DNA from: Rhodospirillales bacterium
GTDB lineage: Bacteria; Pseudomonadota; Alphaproteobacteria; Dongiales; Dongiaceae
Length of the DNA stretch: 64,000 nt
Assembly (NCBI GenBank): GCA_009885795.1
Contig: VFKA01000039.1
Coordinates: forward strand, 1-64,000
Reading direction: 5' to 3'
Shown here: positions 23,950 to 39,108 of the stretch, piece after piece
Position numbering within the stretch: the stretch's first letter is position 1
Layout: each line of letters opens with the position of its first letter
Position numbers and translations under genes: made by a program
The notes under the pieces: model-generated
Databases searched by the model: none
What the model was told of the DNA's origin: nothing
The model's input: the letters and a program-made list of their open reading frames with translations, nothing else

Positions 23950-24150
23950 TCAACCGTTGGGCAGGAAGCTTTTCTTAACCACCTTGGCGTCGCGCTCGGA
24001 CATGATTTCCGAGCCGCGGTGCTGGCGCTTCATCTTCTGCGGGCGGTTGACGAGGCCGTGGCGCTTGCGCGACGGGTTCATCCGCACCTTGCCGGTGCCG
24101 GTGAGCGAGAAGCGCTTCTTGGCGCCGCTCTTGGTCTTCATCTTGGGCAT
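23950..24150 (-). CDS. rpmI: 50S ribosomal protein L35
   Basis: Ribosomal protein L35, 66 residues: [25 protein letters not shown] and [20 protein letters not shown] are classic. It is first of the rpmI-rplT pair. infC, normally directly upstream, is not here; instead the sequence moves into an AT-richer accessory segment, so a rearrangement or insertion boundary is likely just upstream. Confidence 0.99.
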
Positions 24151-24488
24151 TTCATAAGTCCTTGATCTGGGCCGGTCATGGCCGGTTTCATGAGGCGCCG
24201 GCTTGGGGCATGCCCGTTTAGCCCATGGCCCGAGCGCCTTCGGAGAGGCCGGGTTATAGCGACGGGGCCGGGGAAACGCAAGCGGGGGGAAAGGGATGCT
24301 GATAATCTCTGAGGTCGACTCATTGCGGACGTTCTCAGGAGAGCGGGATCATTGCATCAGGGTACTTGCACGTCCCGCACCTGAAAATTTGTACCGCGTA
24401 ATGTCAAATGCATCTGACGCTGTCCAGGCGGCAGGTTGATTGCACAGTCTCGGAGTCGACAGGAAGGTTGGGCGGCAACGGTCCTGCG
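24151..24488. other. Gene-free stretch upstream of rpmI
   Basis: About 340 bases. The first ~120 carry GC-rich leader sequence for rpmI-rplT. GC content drops visibly after about 24300, marking the edge of the accessory segment. No convincing gene, tRNA or strong promoter was seen. Confidence 0.6.
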
Positions 24489-25340
24489 CTAAGTAAGGCG
24501 GTGCTGACCGTTTGAATCCGGAAACCACCGTTCCGCGTTCGCTAAGAGTTCGTCAAGGCTCGTCTGTACCGCCGGTGATGTGTCCATCTCGACCAGCGTA
24601 TACGGTGCCGCTATCGCTGCATCCTTGACCGAACCGCCAAGGTGATAGGTTCGACCATCGACCTGGAGATACCGGTCGTGCACATCGGCTGCGGCTAGAA
24701 GACGGTAGGTCTCCGGCCTTTCCCGTGCGAGCAGAGAAGAAACGGAGACCACACGATCTCGTCGGAGAATGCCACTGGCGTCACTTTTGGGCGGCTCAAG
24801 TAGGCTCTTTCTCGTCAGGAGTACGATTTCGGCTGACGGGGGAACTTCACATAAGTAACGATAAAAGACATCGCTATTGAGGTATGGATCGAAAAGATGG
24901 ATACCGCTACGAGCGGAGGCACACAGAGCACGCAGCTGCAAGTAAGCGGAGAACGGGGAGCCGCCAGGAACGATGACGTCCGGATCGTCGGCCGGAATCG
25001 CTTGGATCGCCTCGGTGCAGTGAAGGATCAACTCTTGAAAAGTTGTGAGCAAATGCTGACCACTTGCACCCTGTTCAACCTGCTGAAAAATTGCTCCAAA
25101 TCTATTCACAGCTCTTCGTGACCGAGTGTATTCGGCTTCCAGGCGTAGGCCGGGCAATTCGCAGAACCGACTGAGTTCGTTATGATACTGACTGACGTCC
25201 CTGTTGAATTGCGCCCGCACGTACGGCATATGACGCTGCATATCACCACCTTCGCTGACTAATCGACGGGTTGGATCCACCAGAAGACCCAATCCGACCA
25301 GCAGATGCTGTTTCATTTGGGTTCGAGTCACGGTCGCCAC
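24489..25340 (-). CDS. PLD-like superfamily protein, unknown role
   Basis: Protein of 283 residues. The C-terminal half looks like one phospholipase D-type domain: the strand and turn SARSGIHLFDPYLNSDVFYRYL (143-163), EIVLLTRK (171-178), and the late motif DVHDRYLQVDGRTYHLGGSVKD (219-240). There, His221-Asp-Arg223 replaces the usual HxK and is followed by GGS. Such HDR(Y/F)-type motifs with GxSxKD are known in PLD-like proteins of accessory regions. The N-terminal half is helical and unrecognised. It follows the PD-(D/E)XK-like gene on the same strand by 46 bases, so they are probably an operon. AT-richer than the surroundings. Confidence 0.65.
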   Translation of the reverse strand: MATVTRTQMKQHLLVGLGLLVDPTRRLVSEGGDMQRHMPYVRAQFNRDVSQYHNELSRFCELPGLRLEAEYTRSRRAVNRFGAIFQQVEQGASGQHLLTTFQELILHCTEAIQAIPADDPDVIVPGGSPFSAYLQLRALCASARSGIHLFDPYLNSDVFYRYLCEVPPSAEIVLLTRKSLLEPPKSDASGILRRDRVVSVSSLLARERPETYRLLAAADVHDRYLQVDGRTYHLGGSVKDAAIAAPYTLVEMDTSPAVQTSLDELLANAERWFPDSNGQHRLT

Positions 25341-25386
25341 CTACCATAGTTGCCAGAGTCAGAGCACTGATACCCCTTAACCATTC

Positions 25387-26475
25387 TCAGCCCTTTGCAC
25401 GCGGAGTCCCATGAAGAGCAATCTCCCATCCCCGCGCCAGCCGGCATGCTTCTTCGATTGATAGAGGATGTGCGGCTTGCCTGTTGAGATGTAAGGCAGC
25501 AAAACCGGCCTGAGGGCTTATGAAAGCGATCCCTGACAGATGAGCAATGGCCTGCGTGACGGTCACTGTGGGCGGTAGCGAGTTGTCAAAGGTCGATGCC
25601 TGAGCAGCGTTCGTTACCTCTGTCTCAAAAAGGTGTGTCGCGATTCGGTTTGCGAGGTCTCGAAGACTGCCAAATATATTGATTTTTAGGAGCGAGGAAC
25701 CAATCCCATCTGGAAGGACGAAAATGAGGATGTAAGTAGCGTCGGTAGCAAATTGCGACGCGTATTGAAGAGGAACCCACCTGTTCTCATGGGCGAGAGC
25801 GACCGGATCGTATTCATGCTCGGCAAACCGGGCGCCAGGGCCTTTCTTACGCTTTCTGACGGTCCACTGGAGCGCTGGAATGTCAAGCTGTTCAGCACTT
25901 GCTAGCGTCACTAGGTGGTGTCTCAAGGGAACGAAGGCTTCGGCATTTACGGCGTCTGGACCATGATTGCCCGATCCGTCGATCGTGAAAGTGTATCCCG
26001 GAAACTTCGATTCCAGCCGACGCGCGAAGGTCGCACGCAGATCGGGTTCAAAACCGAAGGACTTGATTTCGAAGAAGACGGGGTGAGCCAGAACGTCGAT
26101 GCGGCCATCAAGATCGATCTCGCGCCCGCGCAGTGTGGCTGCGTGCGCCACTTCAGGTTCAAAAGAAGTCCCTTGATCGATTAGCCAGCCGTAACCTTGC
26201 AGTTGTGCCAGGTAGCCAGACGCTGTGGATTCTTGTGTGAGGTTCTTGAAGAGCGTTGTGACGAGGCATGGTCGCACGCCAGTGATTGATCTAACATGGG
26301 CAAGCACGCCCGCTAAGCTTGCTGCGATGGCCTTACTATTCGCAAGGCTATAAGTAATTGGAGTTTCTAATGTGATCGGTACATCTGGAAGCGCATCTAT
26401 GCCGGTCGAGGACAGAGATGGTTGCAGGCGAATCAACTCGCGAGCAAACTGCATTCGGCTTCCCATACGTGTCAT
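25387..26475 (-). CDS. Putative PD-(D/E)XK nuclease-like protein
   Basis: Protein of 362 residues with no assigned family. The segment REIDLDGRIDVLAHPVFFEIKS (119-139) has the spacing of a PD-(D/E)XK nuclease core, Asp127 then Glu136-Ile-Lys138, with LQGYGWLIDQGTSFEPEV before it as the likely first helix and strand. The C-terminal two thirds contain a FVPLRHHLVTLASAEQ segment and a basic loop (RKRKKGPGARF). It lies upstream of the PLD-like gene. The start is ATG 26475 or 26466; a stop lies right upstream in this frame, while another frame is open there (see 26348-26659), so a frameshift is possible. Confidence 0.55.
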   Translation of the reverse strand: MTRMGSRMQFARELIRLQPSLSSTGIDALPDVPITLETPITYSLANSKAIAASLAGVLAHVRSITGVRPCLVTTLFKNLTQESTASGYLAQLQGYGWLIDQGTSFEPEVAHAATLRGREIDLDGRIDVLAHPVFFEIKSFGFEPDLRATFARRLESKFPGYTFTIDGSGNHGPDAVNAEAFVPLRHHLVTLASAEQLDIPALQWTVRKRKKGPGARFAEHEYDPVALAHENRWVPLQYASQFATDATYILIFVLPDGIGSSLLKINIFGSLRDLANRIATHLFETEVTNAAQASTFDNSLPPTVTVTQAIAHLSGIAFISPQAGFAALHLNRQAAHPLSIEEACRLARGWEIALHGTPRAKG

Positions 26476-26659
26476 AAGCTAAGTCGCCGAAAAAAAGATT
26501 GACCAGGCGCATTGTGACAAAGGCCTCCGCTTTCCTCTGAAAGATCGCATCGGTGTCAGGATTGATCGATTGACGCTCAATCTGCTCCCCCGCAAATGAC
26601 GACTTCGTTCGCACCGGACCCCGAAAGCACAAGTCTTGCGATGGAAGAGTGATATTCAT
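26348..26659 (-). CDS. Possible upstream ORF or frameshifted N-terminus of the nuclease-like gene
   Basis: A 103-codon frame beginning MNITLPSQDLCFRGPV. Its first ~60 residues look like protein (FQRKAEAFVTMRLVNLFFGDLAYDTYG), but the last ~40 overlap the start of the 25387-26475 gene in another frame. Either it is a small separate gene translated just before that gene, or it is the true N-terminus of that gene separated by one indel near 26480. No family recognised. Confidence 0.35.
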   Translation of the reverse strand: MNITLPSQDLCFRGPVRTKSSFAGEQIERQSINPDTDAIFQRKAEAFVTMRLVNLFFGDLAYDTYGKPNAVCSRVDSPATISVLDRHRCASRCTDHIRNSNYL

Positions 26660-26690
26660 AGCCGCCTAAGACCCGCATTAGCTGACTCCC

Positions 26691-27644
26691 ATGGCGCTCG
26701 ATCACTACATCTCCCAGGTCCATCTTAGGCGGTTCTACTCTCCCGCCCTGGACGGCCTTATGTACGCCATGCGCAAGAGTGACCTTAAACGGTTCACGCC
26801 GAACGCCAAAGCTGTTTGCTGCATCAACGAAGGCAATACCAATGAATATCTAGACCAACTTCGCGCCATAGAGGAATTTCTAATACCCGTTGAGAGCCGC
26901 TATAACGCTGCGGTTTCCGCACTTGAATCGGGGCAACCCGATCAGGAAGCCATCTATGTCGTGGCCGGCTTCGTGAGCTATGTCCTGACCTGTTCGCCGG
27001 CTGCTATGCGAATCAATTCAGGGCCATTGAAGGCCAACTTAGAGGCAACCGCAAAGCTTCTGGAAGCGATGGGAGCCATACCTCCGCCGCCGCCAGCCCT
27101 TGGTGGCAAGGACTTCACCGAGCTTCTGGAGTCGGGCAAGGTCATGTTTAGAATCGACCCTAAATATCCGCAGGCGGTTGGCATTTCGAGCATTCTTCAT
27201 CGGGTCGCGATGTTCGGCAATTTCAAATGGGACATTCTCATCAACGAACACGAGGATTGCCCCTTCTTCACGAGCGATTTTCCCGTGGGCAATGAACAAT
27301 CGCCTTGCGGTCGCGTATTGAATCGTATTGTTCCTCTTACACCGACAATCGCAATCCGCATCCAACCGAATATCGAACTTAATCGTGATGACGCCAATTT
27401 TGAATTTCGCCACTTCTCTTCCAAGCGGCGGAATGTGAAACGTCACGAAGCGGTCAGTGTCAACCGACTCTTGGTCCGGTCGGCAGAGGACACAGTGTTC
27501 TTTCGAGACGATCACTCGTGGGTCCCTGGCTTCATTGAGAAGAATCGCCATTTCCGAGTCGAGACGGAAACGACTGAAATTCCACTGCCACACGGGAGCG
27601 CGCAGTGGTCACGACAAGAAGTAAAGCCCTTCCGGCACTCCTAG
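26691..27644 (+). CDS. DUF4238-domain protein
   Basis: Protein of 317 residues with the DUF4238 opening: a His-Tyr-Ile start (DHYISQVHLRRFYSPALDG), then AVCCINEGNTNEYLDQLRAIEEFLIPVESRYNAAVSAL. The central WDILINEHEDCPFFTSDFPVG is another typical segment, followed by RIVPLTPTIAIRIQP and KRHEAVSVNRLLVRSAEDTVFF. The family is widespread in mobile regions; its function is unknown. The gene diverges from the PLD/PD-(D/E)XK pair about 215 bases away and shares their lower GC. Confidence 0.8.
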   Translation: MALDHYISQVHLRRFYSPALDGLMYAMRKSDLKRFTPNAKAVCCINEGNTNEYLDQLRAIEEFLIPVESRYNAAVSALESGQPDQEAIYVVAGFVSYVLTCSPAAMRINSGPLKANLEATAKLLEAMGAIPPPPPALGGKDFTELLESGKVMFRIDPKYPQAVGISSILHRVAMFGNFKWDILINEHEDCPFFTSDFPVGNEQSPCGRVLNRIVPLTPTIAIRIQPNIELNRDDANFEFRHFSSKRRNVKRHEAVSVNRLLVRSAEDTVFFRDDHSWVPGFIEKNRHFRVETETTEIPLPHGSAQWSRQEVKPFRHS

Positions 27645-27849
27645 CTTGAACTGGGCTGTTACGGATAGGTCAAGACTCATTGCGCGATGGGATTCTCCGC
27701 TCCTGGCATTGAGCGGACATGCCTGAAACCGAGGCAGTGCCAAGACTGCATGACGATCAATCTTTAGCGCAAGAACCGGATAGCCCGCCGGGCGCCGCCG
27801 CGCCAAATTGCCTGTCCTGACAACGTACCCGCGAAAGGCCCGCCGCACC

Positions 27850-28323
27850 ATGCCGCCGATCCAATTCGTCTCCATGCCGACCGACGAGGCGCTGGCGTTC
27901 CAGGCCGGCGCCGGGGACGCGAACGGCCAGGCGCCGGAGCGCCACGTCTCGGACGGCGGCGGCGTCCCCTGCCGGCATTGCCAGGCCGATGTCGCGGCGG
28001 GCGCGCCCTATCTCATCCTCGCCTACCGGCCGTTTCCCCGGGCGCAGCCCTACGCCGAGATTGGGCCGATATTCCTGCACGCGGAACCCTGCCCGCGCTA
28101 TCCGCCGACCGGCGCCGTGCCGCCCATGTTCCTCTCGCGCGAACGCTACCTCGTCAAGGGCTACGGCCGGAACGACCGGATCGTCTACGGAACCGGGCGG
28201 ATCGTCGCTTCGGCGGACGTCGCCGAGGCGGCCGCCTCGATCCTGGAGCGCGCCGGCGTTGCTTACGTCCATGCGCGCTCCGCCCTCAACAACTGCTTCC
28301 AATGCCGCATCGAACGTTCTTGA
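27850..28323 (+). CDS. DUF1203-domain protein
   Basis: Protein of 157 residues (ATG 27850, MPPIQFVSMPTDEAL; ATG 27808 adds 14 unconserved residues). The DUF1203 features are clear: PCRHCQADVAAGAPYLILAYRPF with a CxxC pair, PIFLHAEPCPRY, and the C-terminal YVHARSALNNCFQCRIER with a second CxxC-like pair. The four cysteines may bind zinc. The role is unknown. It is followed 19 bases later by an Ada-like gene, so co-expression is likely. Confidence 0.85.
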   Translation: MPPIQFVSMPTDEALAFQAGAGDANGQAPERHVSDGGGVPCRHCQADVAAGAPYLILAYRPFPRAQPYAEIGPIFLHAEPCPRYPPTGAVPPMFLSRERYLVKGYGRNDRIVYGTGRIVASADVAEAAASILERAGVAYVHARSALNNCFQCRIERS

Positions 28324-36951: not shown

Positions 36952-37092
36952 GGAAAAGGGGTCGGAAAAGGGGTCGGGAGTCGTTTCTCGCATCCACCCA
37001 AAATCAATCCTGTCGCCCCGGCGAAAGCCGGGGCCCATGGCGACACGTCTCGGAAAAGGGGTCGCGGAAAAGGGGTCGGGAGTCGTTTTGGC
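36952..37092. repeat. Imperfect direct duplication
   Basis: GGAAAAGGGGTCGGGAGTCG occurs twice, around 36966-36985 and 37069-37088, each preceded by a further GGAAAAGGGGTCG copy. The two blocks flank the CCCCGGC hairpin at 37010-37046, so a repeat unit appears to have been split or duplicated by it. Confidence 0.75.
37010..37046. repeat. Palindromic repeat (GCCCCGGCGAAAGCCGGGGC type)
   Basis: CCCCGGC-GAAA-GCCGGGG forms a strong hairpin with a tetraloop, flanked by TGTCG and CCATGGCGAC. This type is common as a dispersed element in high-GC alphaproteobacteria. Confidence 0.8.
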
Positions 37093-37252
37093 GGAATCAC
37101 TCATGGCCGACATCAGACGGGTTCGTCAGGGCATAGGCAAGGGTGGGAGGCTTGTCAGCCGATTACCGTATCTGTACACTCGGACTGACCGAGGCAAGTC
37201 TCGCCTAGTCAAGCATTCGGAATGATTGCGCTTAAGGGTTATTGATTTATAT

Positions 37253-38260
37253 TCAAGTCGTTGGCCAATCATCATAACCGGTATCGCACTTACCGACGTA
37301 GAAATTGGATTTCATCCAACGCAGGTCGACCTCCCATTGCGCGATAGCTTCTGACATATCTGCCTTGGTTCTCTTCTTCGCCTGACGAACCACATACGCG
37401 ATGGCGTATGCGACGCGCCACAATCTGCCACATGAATGCGGCGGCAAGCCTTCCAATTCACGCGCCGTGGTGTCACCAAGCATATGCTCAAGGCAACCCC
37501 GTCTTTGATCTTCAGGCAGTCCATTTCGACCCACGCGATAACCATTACTTGCGAGAACATGGCCGTCTACGTGTTGCTGACTATTATGCAACTGGCCTTC
37601 TAGTTCGTGAATCTGAGTGCTCGGCCATTTGAATGGCAAGAAGGCTCTTGGAGCTAAACGGATACCTGTCGCTTCGCTCGTTGTAACGGCCTCATAAACT
37701 GCAACCACATTCTGCGCCTTGGTTTTTGTCTTGGGTGACACCTCGCTACGCCCCAGATAGTGATCTGTAGCTGGAAGAATATCGATCTTGATGTGACGAA
37801 GATGAACCCGATGCTTTCCTCTCCATTCCTCGGGACCGCTTGCTAAAGCAAGCCAAGCCTTATTGACGTCCTCCACCCACGCTCGTCGATTATTGCCAAT
37901 CCGCCTCTTACGCTCCGTGCGTTCATTATCAATTCGACTATGGGGCAACGAAATTTTGAGGCCAGTGGCTCTTCGGTTCCTGTCAGGGATCTGAGTAGCA
38001 ACGATGGGCTCCCTGTCAGGTTCTCGATGATGGATTCGCGATTCCCTATCGATGATAATTCGCCCCTGAGCTATCAATGGCTGCAAGTTGGTAAGCATAT
38101 CATCATAAGACAAACCATACCGCCGCGCTATTACCCTCACTGGTTTTCCGCTTGCGGCCCGAATGACTCTGTCGAGATGCCTTAGGCCAATCTTCTGTCT
38201 AGTCTGCGGGGCAATCTTTCCTTTTACATGTGAACTGACTTTGCCAACGCGCTCCTTCAT
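37253..38260 (-). CDS. Hypothetical protein, foreign composition
   Basis: Protein of 335 residues, very basic and hydrophilic, with no recognised family. The N-terminal part has a possible helix-turn-helix (HLDRVIRAASGKPVRVIARRYGLSYDDMLTNL), followed by an Arg/Asn-rich linker and a helical C-terminal part (WRVAYAIAYVVRQAKKRTKADMSEAIAQWEVDL). GC is well below the neighbours, which suggests recent transfer. The start ATG overlaps the stop of a 63-codon ORF by four bases, supporting a two-gene unit. A DNA-binding role is a guess. Confidence 0.55.
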   Translation of the reverse strand: MKERVGKVSSHVKGKIAPQTRQKIGLRHLDRVIRAASGKPVRVIARRYGLSYDDMLTNLQPLIAQGRIIIDRESRIHHREPDREPIVATQIPDRNRRATGLKISLPHSRIDNERTERKRRIGNNRRAWVEDVNKAWLALASGPEEWRGKHRVHLRHIKIDILPATDHYLGRSEVSPKTKTKAQNVVAVYEAVTTSEATGIRLAPRAFLPFKWPSTQIHELEGQLHNSQQHVDGHVLASNGYRVGRNGLPEDQRRGCLEHMLGDTTARELEGLPPHSCGRLWRVAYAIAYVVRQAKKRTKADMSEAIAQWEVDLRWMKSNFYVGKCDTGYDDWPTT

Positions 38261-38448
38261 CGTATGGCACTACTTACCCGACATTCCCCAAATGAACCAC
38301 GATTTCTGGCAACATAGTAACCGTCAGGGCCGACCCAGGCAATTTTGAGCGCGATGCGGGACGGTATGTGCTTGGACTTGCCGCCAACAGCCTTGATCAT
38401 GGCCTTCCGAGGCCCCGGATGGTGCCGGTTCTCGTCCTCAAGTGGCAC
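38257..38448 (-). CDS. Small hypothetical ORF overlapping the foreign gene
   Basis: A 63-codon frame (MPLEDENRHHPGPRKAMIKA ...) whose TGA overlaps the ATG of the 335-residue gene (ATGA at 38257-38260), as coupled genes do. The MPLEDENRHHPGPRKA start looks like real protein. No family recognised; it could be a small partner or antitoxin-like protein. Confidence 0.4.
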   Translation of the reverse strand: MPLEDENRHHPGPRKAMIKAVGGKSKHIPSRIALKIAWVGPDGYYVARNRGSFGECRVSSAIR

Positions 38449-39108
38449 CTCTTCTGTTGTCTATCTGCGGCATTGAAATCAGGCTCCGCCTCAAGGTGAG
38501 GGGACTAGTTCTAGCCTCTTGTTCGATAGTCAAGAAGCAAGACCTGACTCCATTCAGAACACCCGTAGTGTTGATCAAAGGTTAGTCCTTGGAATCAGCG
38601 ACCGCAACCGGGATCGGTCGGTCGCCGGTCATGGCCCACACGCGATTTCCTTTTCGAATTTTCTTGACTTTTCTTGATTATAAGCCTATCGATTTCCTGG
38701 CCCCATTTTGTTGGGGACTGGTACAGTTCTTTGACATCGTGAATAGGTCCGCCTTGAACCCTTTCGCGCGTCGCGGGGAAGGGCACGAGGGCAATTTGTC
38801 TTGGAATTGGGCGGCTTTGCCGGCCCGGCGCGAAGAATATTTGTTCCTCGAGAATCGGGTGGGGGATATCCCCTCGCCACCCCGCCCCAATTGAACCTCC
38901 GATTTTTTTGCCCTGGGGTATATCCCTTCCCGGCCGAAAACCGACAACCGACGGCTGACCGCCGATGGCTGACGGCTGACCGCCTCCGCCAAGCGGCAAT
39001 TCCCGCTGGACATGGGGTGCATCGCTCGAAAATCGCCCCCTCGGCCCCTCCCAAGCGGGGGAAGCCCGCTGGCCCAGCCCCGCGAATCCGGCCATAACCT
39101 CCCCCGCC
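38449..39108. other. Gene-free stretch before the ABC transporter
   Basis: About 660 bases without a convincing gene. The left half is AT-rich; frames here lack protein character. 38938-38990 has short direct repeats of CCGA(C/T)GGCTGAC. The right end supplies the promoter region of the ABC operon. Confidence 0.6.
38938..38990. repeat. Short tandem-like repeats
   Basis: Repeated units of the type ACCGACGGCTGACCGCCGATGG occur, with GACGGCTGACCGCC seen twice in a row. This is a low-complexity direct repeat of unknown role. Confidence 0.6.

Follow-up and report, generated by a model that had tools for sequence, protein, structure and literature searches.

Domains of the PLD fold include non-catalytic binding domains, such as the PLD-like domains of TrmB, FAM83 and MITD1, as well as active single-HKD nucleases, such as NucT and Zucchini, and single-motif PLD phosphodiesterases work as dimers. 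The variant with an HxR motif, a common and unexplained domain, was met in the present work chiefly at the C-terminal end of ORF6N/RhuM proteins, and the literature found on the two profiles that include it, PADLOC PDC-S05 and the VPA1262 family, holds passing mentions only. As for DUF4238, one member confers strong resistance to phage T7 in E. coli (Rousset 2022, PMC9122126), and surveys of Pseudomonas list the domain among defence systems (PMC12629846, PMC10855318). Here we analyse a locus in a stretch of 64,000 nucleotides (the window) in which a DUF4238 gene lies beside a gene for an HxR-type PLD-like protein and an orphan gene for a nuclease-like protein.

The three genes make up a block (24300-27650, its precise ends being undefined) between rpmI (23950-24150, minus strand) and a DUF1203 gene (27808-28323, plus strand), with genes for an Ada/Ogt-type repair protein and YgjP also among the neighbours. 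The PLD-like gene (24489-25340; 283 aa from a GTG start, with M9 as an alternative start) and the orphan nuclease-like gene (25387-26475; 362 aa, with a PD-(D/E)XK-type motif and an uncertain true 5' end) are both on the minus strand, 46 bases apart, and the full-length DUF4238 gene (26691-27644, plus strand; 317 aa) diverges from them across 215 bases (26476-26690), a candidate shared promoter region in which no consensus sigma-70 site was found. The original prediction had described this arrangement, namely, two closely spaced same-strand genes, a DUF4238 gene diverging some 215 bases away and a block AT-richer than both sides, and all of this stands: the open reading frames lie at these coordinates, the GC content of the block is 0.53-0.57 vs ~0.63-0.72 in the flanks, and GC3 is 0.55, 0.53 and 0.60 in the PLD-like, nuclease-like and DUF4238 genes, respectively, vs 0.78-0.93 in ten neighbouring genes. 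Because the GC3 of the three genes is so far below that of these neighbours, the trio is almost certainly a small foreign block that was horizontally acquired beside ribosomal-protein genes. At the block borders, neither convincing repeats nor a tRNA could be seen, no mobile element or insertion boundaries were found for the block, and none of the RNA families searched was detected at the locus. A second AT-rich patch in the window (37000-39000, GC 0.525-0.54) holds a 335-aa open frame (37253-38260, minus strand) with no credible Pfam match.

One positional claim had to be abandoned, namely, that the block sits where infC normally precedes rpmI. The infC gene of the source genome is on a different contig (G000:C16) from the rpmI locus, and of the other family members, 15 yielded both infC and pheS: infC is apart from rpmI-rplT-pheS in 11 of them and nearer to these genes in the others (~1-3 kb in three, ~8 kb in one). 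Since infC is elsewhere in most family members, its absence here is no footprint of the insert, and displacement of infC by the insert was rejected. The region upstream of rpmI is variable among the relatives, and the DUF1203/ogt/ygjP flank is present in none of the relatives compared; with no relative sharing these flanks, neither an empty site nor the insertion point could be defined.

Our preferred reading, held tentatively and somewhat short of probable, is that of an acquired defence-type insert with two units. The first would be DUF4238 by itself, a gene from a family with one phage-blocking member, serving as an independent second defence gene. The second would be a two-gene operon on the opposite strand, in which the upstream PD-(D/E)XK-type protein would act as the nucleic-acid-cutting effector, and the downstream PLD-like protein would be a ligand- or nucleic-acid-binding sensor or regulator that holds the nuclease off or steers it to invading DNA or RNA. 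An anti-phage role of the insert is plausible, and the two minus-strand genes share their orientation, lie 46 bases apart and hardly differ in composition, features that are compatible with a putative two-gene system, the products of which would be physical or functional partners. These same features speak against the main rival, which we nevertheless regard as a substantial possibility, namely, that acquired accessory genes simply landed together, so that DUF4238 may be a functional defence gene on its own, whereas the PLD-like and nuclease-like genes would be independent, cargo or decaying, and no system at all.

The identification of the plus-strand gene as DUF4238 is secure: the match to Pfam PF14022 spans profile positions 3-280 of 281 (E=1.9e-14; 54.2 bits vs a gathering score of 27), as the original prediction had it. 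The nearest relatives found are 44-50% identical and come from rhizobial plasmids, and those examined adjoin AbiJ-NTD4, HipA, AAA-ATPase and transposase genes on plasmids. None of the DUF4238 relatives examined has the PLD-like/nuclease-like pair next to it, as would be expected if the three genes had been grouped by chance.

The role envisaged for the PLD-like protein in the preferred reading depends on its C-terminus. A helical N-terminal region (~1-120) is followed by a PLD-like domain (~125-272) with the motifs HxR(x)4D (H221-R223-D228) and GGS (235-237), the HDRY (221-224) and GGS residues lying exactly where they had been placed before. The pattern H-x-[KR]-x4-D-x(5-8)-[GS][GSA]S is beyond chance, being present in 0.055% of shuffled versions of this sequence, a figure to be read with the fact that this pattern, like the strict one used for the nuclease-like protein, was drawn up after the sequence had been seen. 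The whole protein has no match in Pfam; its C-terminal half has two partial matches, one to PADLOC PDC-S05 and one to the end of the NCBIfam VPA1262 N-domain model, and two relatives, L014 and L017, match Pfam PLDc_2 weakly, below the cut-off. An AlphaFold2 model built from five sequences is reasonable in the PLD region only, where residues 132-180 and 211-240 are of modest quality (mostly pLDDT 60-80), and the best PDB fold matches of this model are TrmB/TrmBL2, FAM83, NucT, MITD1, Zucchini and phospholipase D (E 1.5e-6 to 1e-3). Sequence searches of the PDB yielded no clear homologue of the PLD-like, nuclease-like or DUF4238 protein. With PLD-fold proteins at the top of the PDB matches and relatives that touch PLDc_2, the predicted PLD-like C-terminus is borne out.

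Whether this domain cuts is a different matter. The catalytic HxK(x)4D is replaced by HxR(x)4D in the PLD-like protein, and HxR is found in all aligned relatives, with H221, D222, R223, D228 and S237 invariant (alignments A1 and A5); given this invariance, the lysine-to-arginine change is a trait of the family. Because the catalytic lysine is replaced, PLD-type catalysis is doubtful; judging from the motif, it has probably been lost, and we infer that the protein serves to bind rather than to cut. The converse assignment, in which a dimeric PLD-like protein with arginine in place of lysine would be the catalytic effector, and the PD-(D/E)XK-like protein would be the sensor or an auxiliary nuclease, draws on the presence of NucT and Zucchini among the fold matches and on the invariance of the motif histidine and aspartate. 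We consider it improbable, in view of the arginine that all aligned relatives have in place of the catalytic lysine, the binding-domain types TrmB, FAM83 and MITD1 among the same fold matches, and the complete ExK motif of the partner.

The neighbourhoods of the PLD-like relatives bear on both the preferred reading and chance grouping. Alignment A1, being too divergent, could not serve for scanning a collection; A2, scanned over genome contigs, recovered two loci, and a DNA pattern of the PLD motif recovered ORF6N/RhuM-type contexts only. In L018 (5620-7076), the HxR PLD-like gene overlaps a DUF2971 gene (PADLOC PDC-S31); in L080 (1040-3336), a prophage contig from IMG/VR, a gene for an AAA_15 ATPase that matches NsnB/AriA/HEC-03B is followed, with a 4-base overlap, by one for an HxR PLD-like protein, and the two adjoin the S24 repressor and CII-type genes of the prophage. 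In L012, an element that carries a phage integrase and a Rep protein, the PLD-like gene is downstream of a further gene and a SIR2_2 gene that matches SIR2-pAgo models; L017, on an Azotobacter plasmid, has genes for AIPR and type I restriction in its vicinity; and in L087 (3972-5558), a VPA1262 gene overlaps a partner gene for a 594-aa protein without a Pfam match. No such partner was seen at L011, L014 and L085, the last two of which come from the same family. The PLD-like module, then, has exchangeable partners, and its setting is often of the defence type; at none of these loci is it accompanied by the nuclease-like protein. The defence-type context that had been predicted thus holds for PLD-like and DUF4238 relatives alike, and the tight operons that several PLD-like relatives form with defence-type partners argue against chance grouping, whereas the relatives that exist without a nuclease-like partner argue for it.

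Several of these loci merit a remark of their own. The L018 operon unites two separately listed candidate defence proteins; the L080 pair has the appearance of a prophage defence cassette made up of two genes; and, in the VPA1262 'N-terminal domain' model (NF040700), the final part (~310-477) corresponds to an HxR PLD-like domain that ORF6N/RhuM-type proteins also have. PLD matches at L005 and L008 were set aside, as they seem to arise from high-GC genes read in the wrong frame.

The putative effector is a far more solitary protein. Its D127-x8-E136-x-K138, within GRIDVLAHPVFFEIK, has the textbook D...ExK pattern of PD-(D/E)XK-type enzymes, with the residues exactly as originally placed, on the basis of a sequence motif only. 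A strict pattern of the GRIDV...FFEIK type appeared in 0 of 20,000 shuffles; the loose D...ExK pattern appeared in 18%, so that the motif alone is suggestive, and the nuclease activity of the 25387-26475 product is putative. A single-sequence structure model was unusable (pLDDT 37). No family was found for the protein in Pfam, PADLOC, NCBIfam or PHROGs, and no relative of it in some thousand sampled genomes, namely, 61 relatives, 385 genomes of the class, 398 of the phylum and two further family samples (134 and 133 genomes), nor in plasmids, phages, viral contigs or an 85k-species contig scan, the scans of contig collections working by exact short peptides, by which close relatives only are detectable; a DNA pattern of the nuclease motif gave no matches. 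Without relatives, conservation says nothing on the fold of this protein or on its partnership. Weak matches at L020-L023 (E 0.0016-0.009) were not accepted as relatives; at L020, the best of these, the coding frames belong, by eye, to leucyl-aminopeptidase-like and glutathione-transferase-like genes.

A PD-(D/E)XK-type motif would also befit an orphan endonuclease, of the type II restriction or the homing type, that is accompanied by an accessory protein, an explanation to which we assign very little probability, there being no DNA methyltransferase among the adjoining genes and no match to restriction enzyme families. The start of the nuclease-like gene is overlapped, in another frame, by an open frame of 103 aa without a family (26348-26659, minus strand), the first ~61 codons of which have island-like codon usage. 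The 184 bases before the nuclease-like ATG carry an island-like coding signal in a different frame, at 0.229 bits per codon, on a scale where true frames average 0.17-0.22 and wrong frames ~-0.03 to -0.13, and the best frame-switch point is within 26394-26478. This signal suggests that either a small gene lies upstream or the N-terminus of the nuclease-like protein is frameshifted. Given coding signal before 26475 in another frame, the nuclease-like gene may be decayed, and such a possible frame disruption is congenial to chance grouping.

Conserved co-occurrence of the pair, the test that the original prediction had set, was not borne out: no second genome with both genes was found in the collections searched, the nuclease-like protein having no relatives, and those of the PLD-like protein occurring with other partners or alone. 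This outcome favours chance grouping; yet, because the nuclease-like gene is an orphan, it is a weak negative test. A more specific proposal is that the two genes form a hitherto undescribed system against invaders, with an HxR-type PLD-like protein devoid of catalysis as the sensor that controls an orphan PD-(D/E)XK nuclease; this would be one of several systems that combine the PLD-like module with exchangeable partners (AAA ATPase, DUF2971, SIR2, nuclease). We regard this proposal as rather doubtful. If the pair does work in this way, the HxR PLD-like domain would be a sensor/regulator module shared across bacterial immunity and coupled to varied effectors, and would thereby gain a testable role; otherwise, what we describe is an accessory insert of the ordinary kind.

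Set beside the known systems, the locus shares parts with several. Mokosh (MkoB/MkoC) also has a PLD domain in a defence protein, and the relative L014 matches MkoC weakly (0.0018), but its helicase is absent at this locus, and the PLD-like protein of the window has no match itself. The match of the PLD-like protein to the VPA1262 family (NCBIfam NF040700) takes in positions 328-477 of 478 of the N-domain model, its C-terminal third, with a score of 34 vs a cut-off of 80 and the first ~300 model positions unmatched; the partner in L087 is the 594-aa protein without a Pfam match. The likeness to ORF6N/RhuM-type proteins (PDC-S05) consists in the C-terminal HxR(x)4D domain, aligned over ~100-266. 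That profile represents an ORF6N-plus-PLD architecture, of which the viral ORF6N protein L016 covers 5-298 of 306, whereas the PLD-like protein, without a detectable ORF6N N-terminal domain, covers 152-301 only. The single-gene anti-phage system of the P2 hotspot (Rousset 2022) has a full-length DUF4238 domain in common with the protein described here; the tested protein is, however, a different member, and the present one has no relative among phage records and no PADLOC match. In the L080 prophage pair, too, two genes form an operon and one of them encodes an HxR-type PLD-like protein of comparable length (300 aa); the place of the nuclease-like protein is taken there by an ATPase related to NsnB/AriA/HEC-03B.
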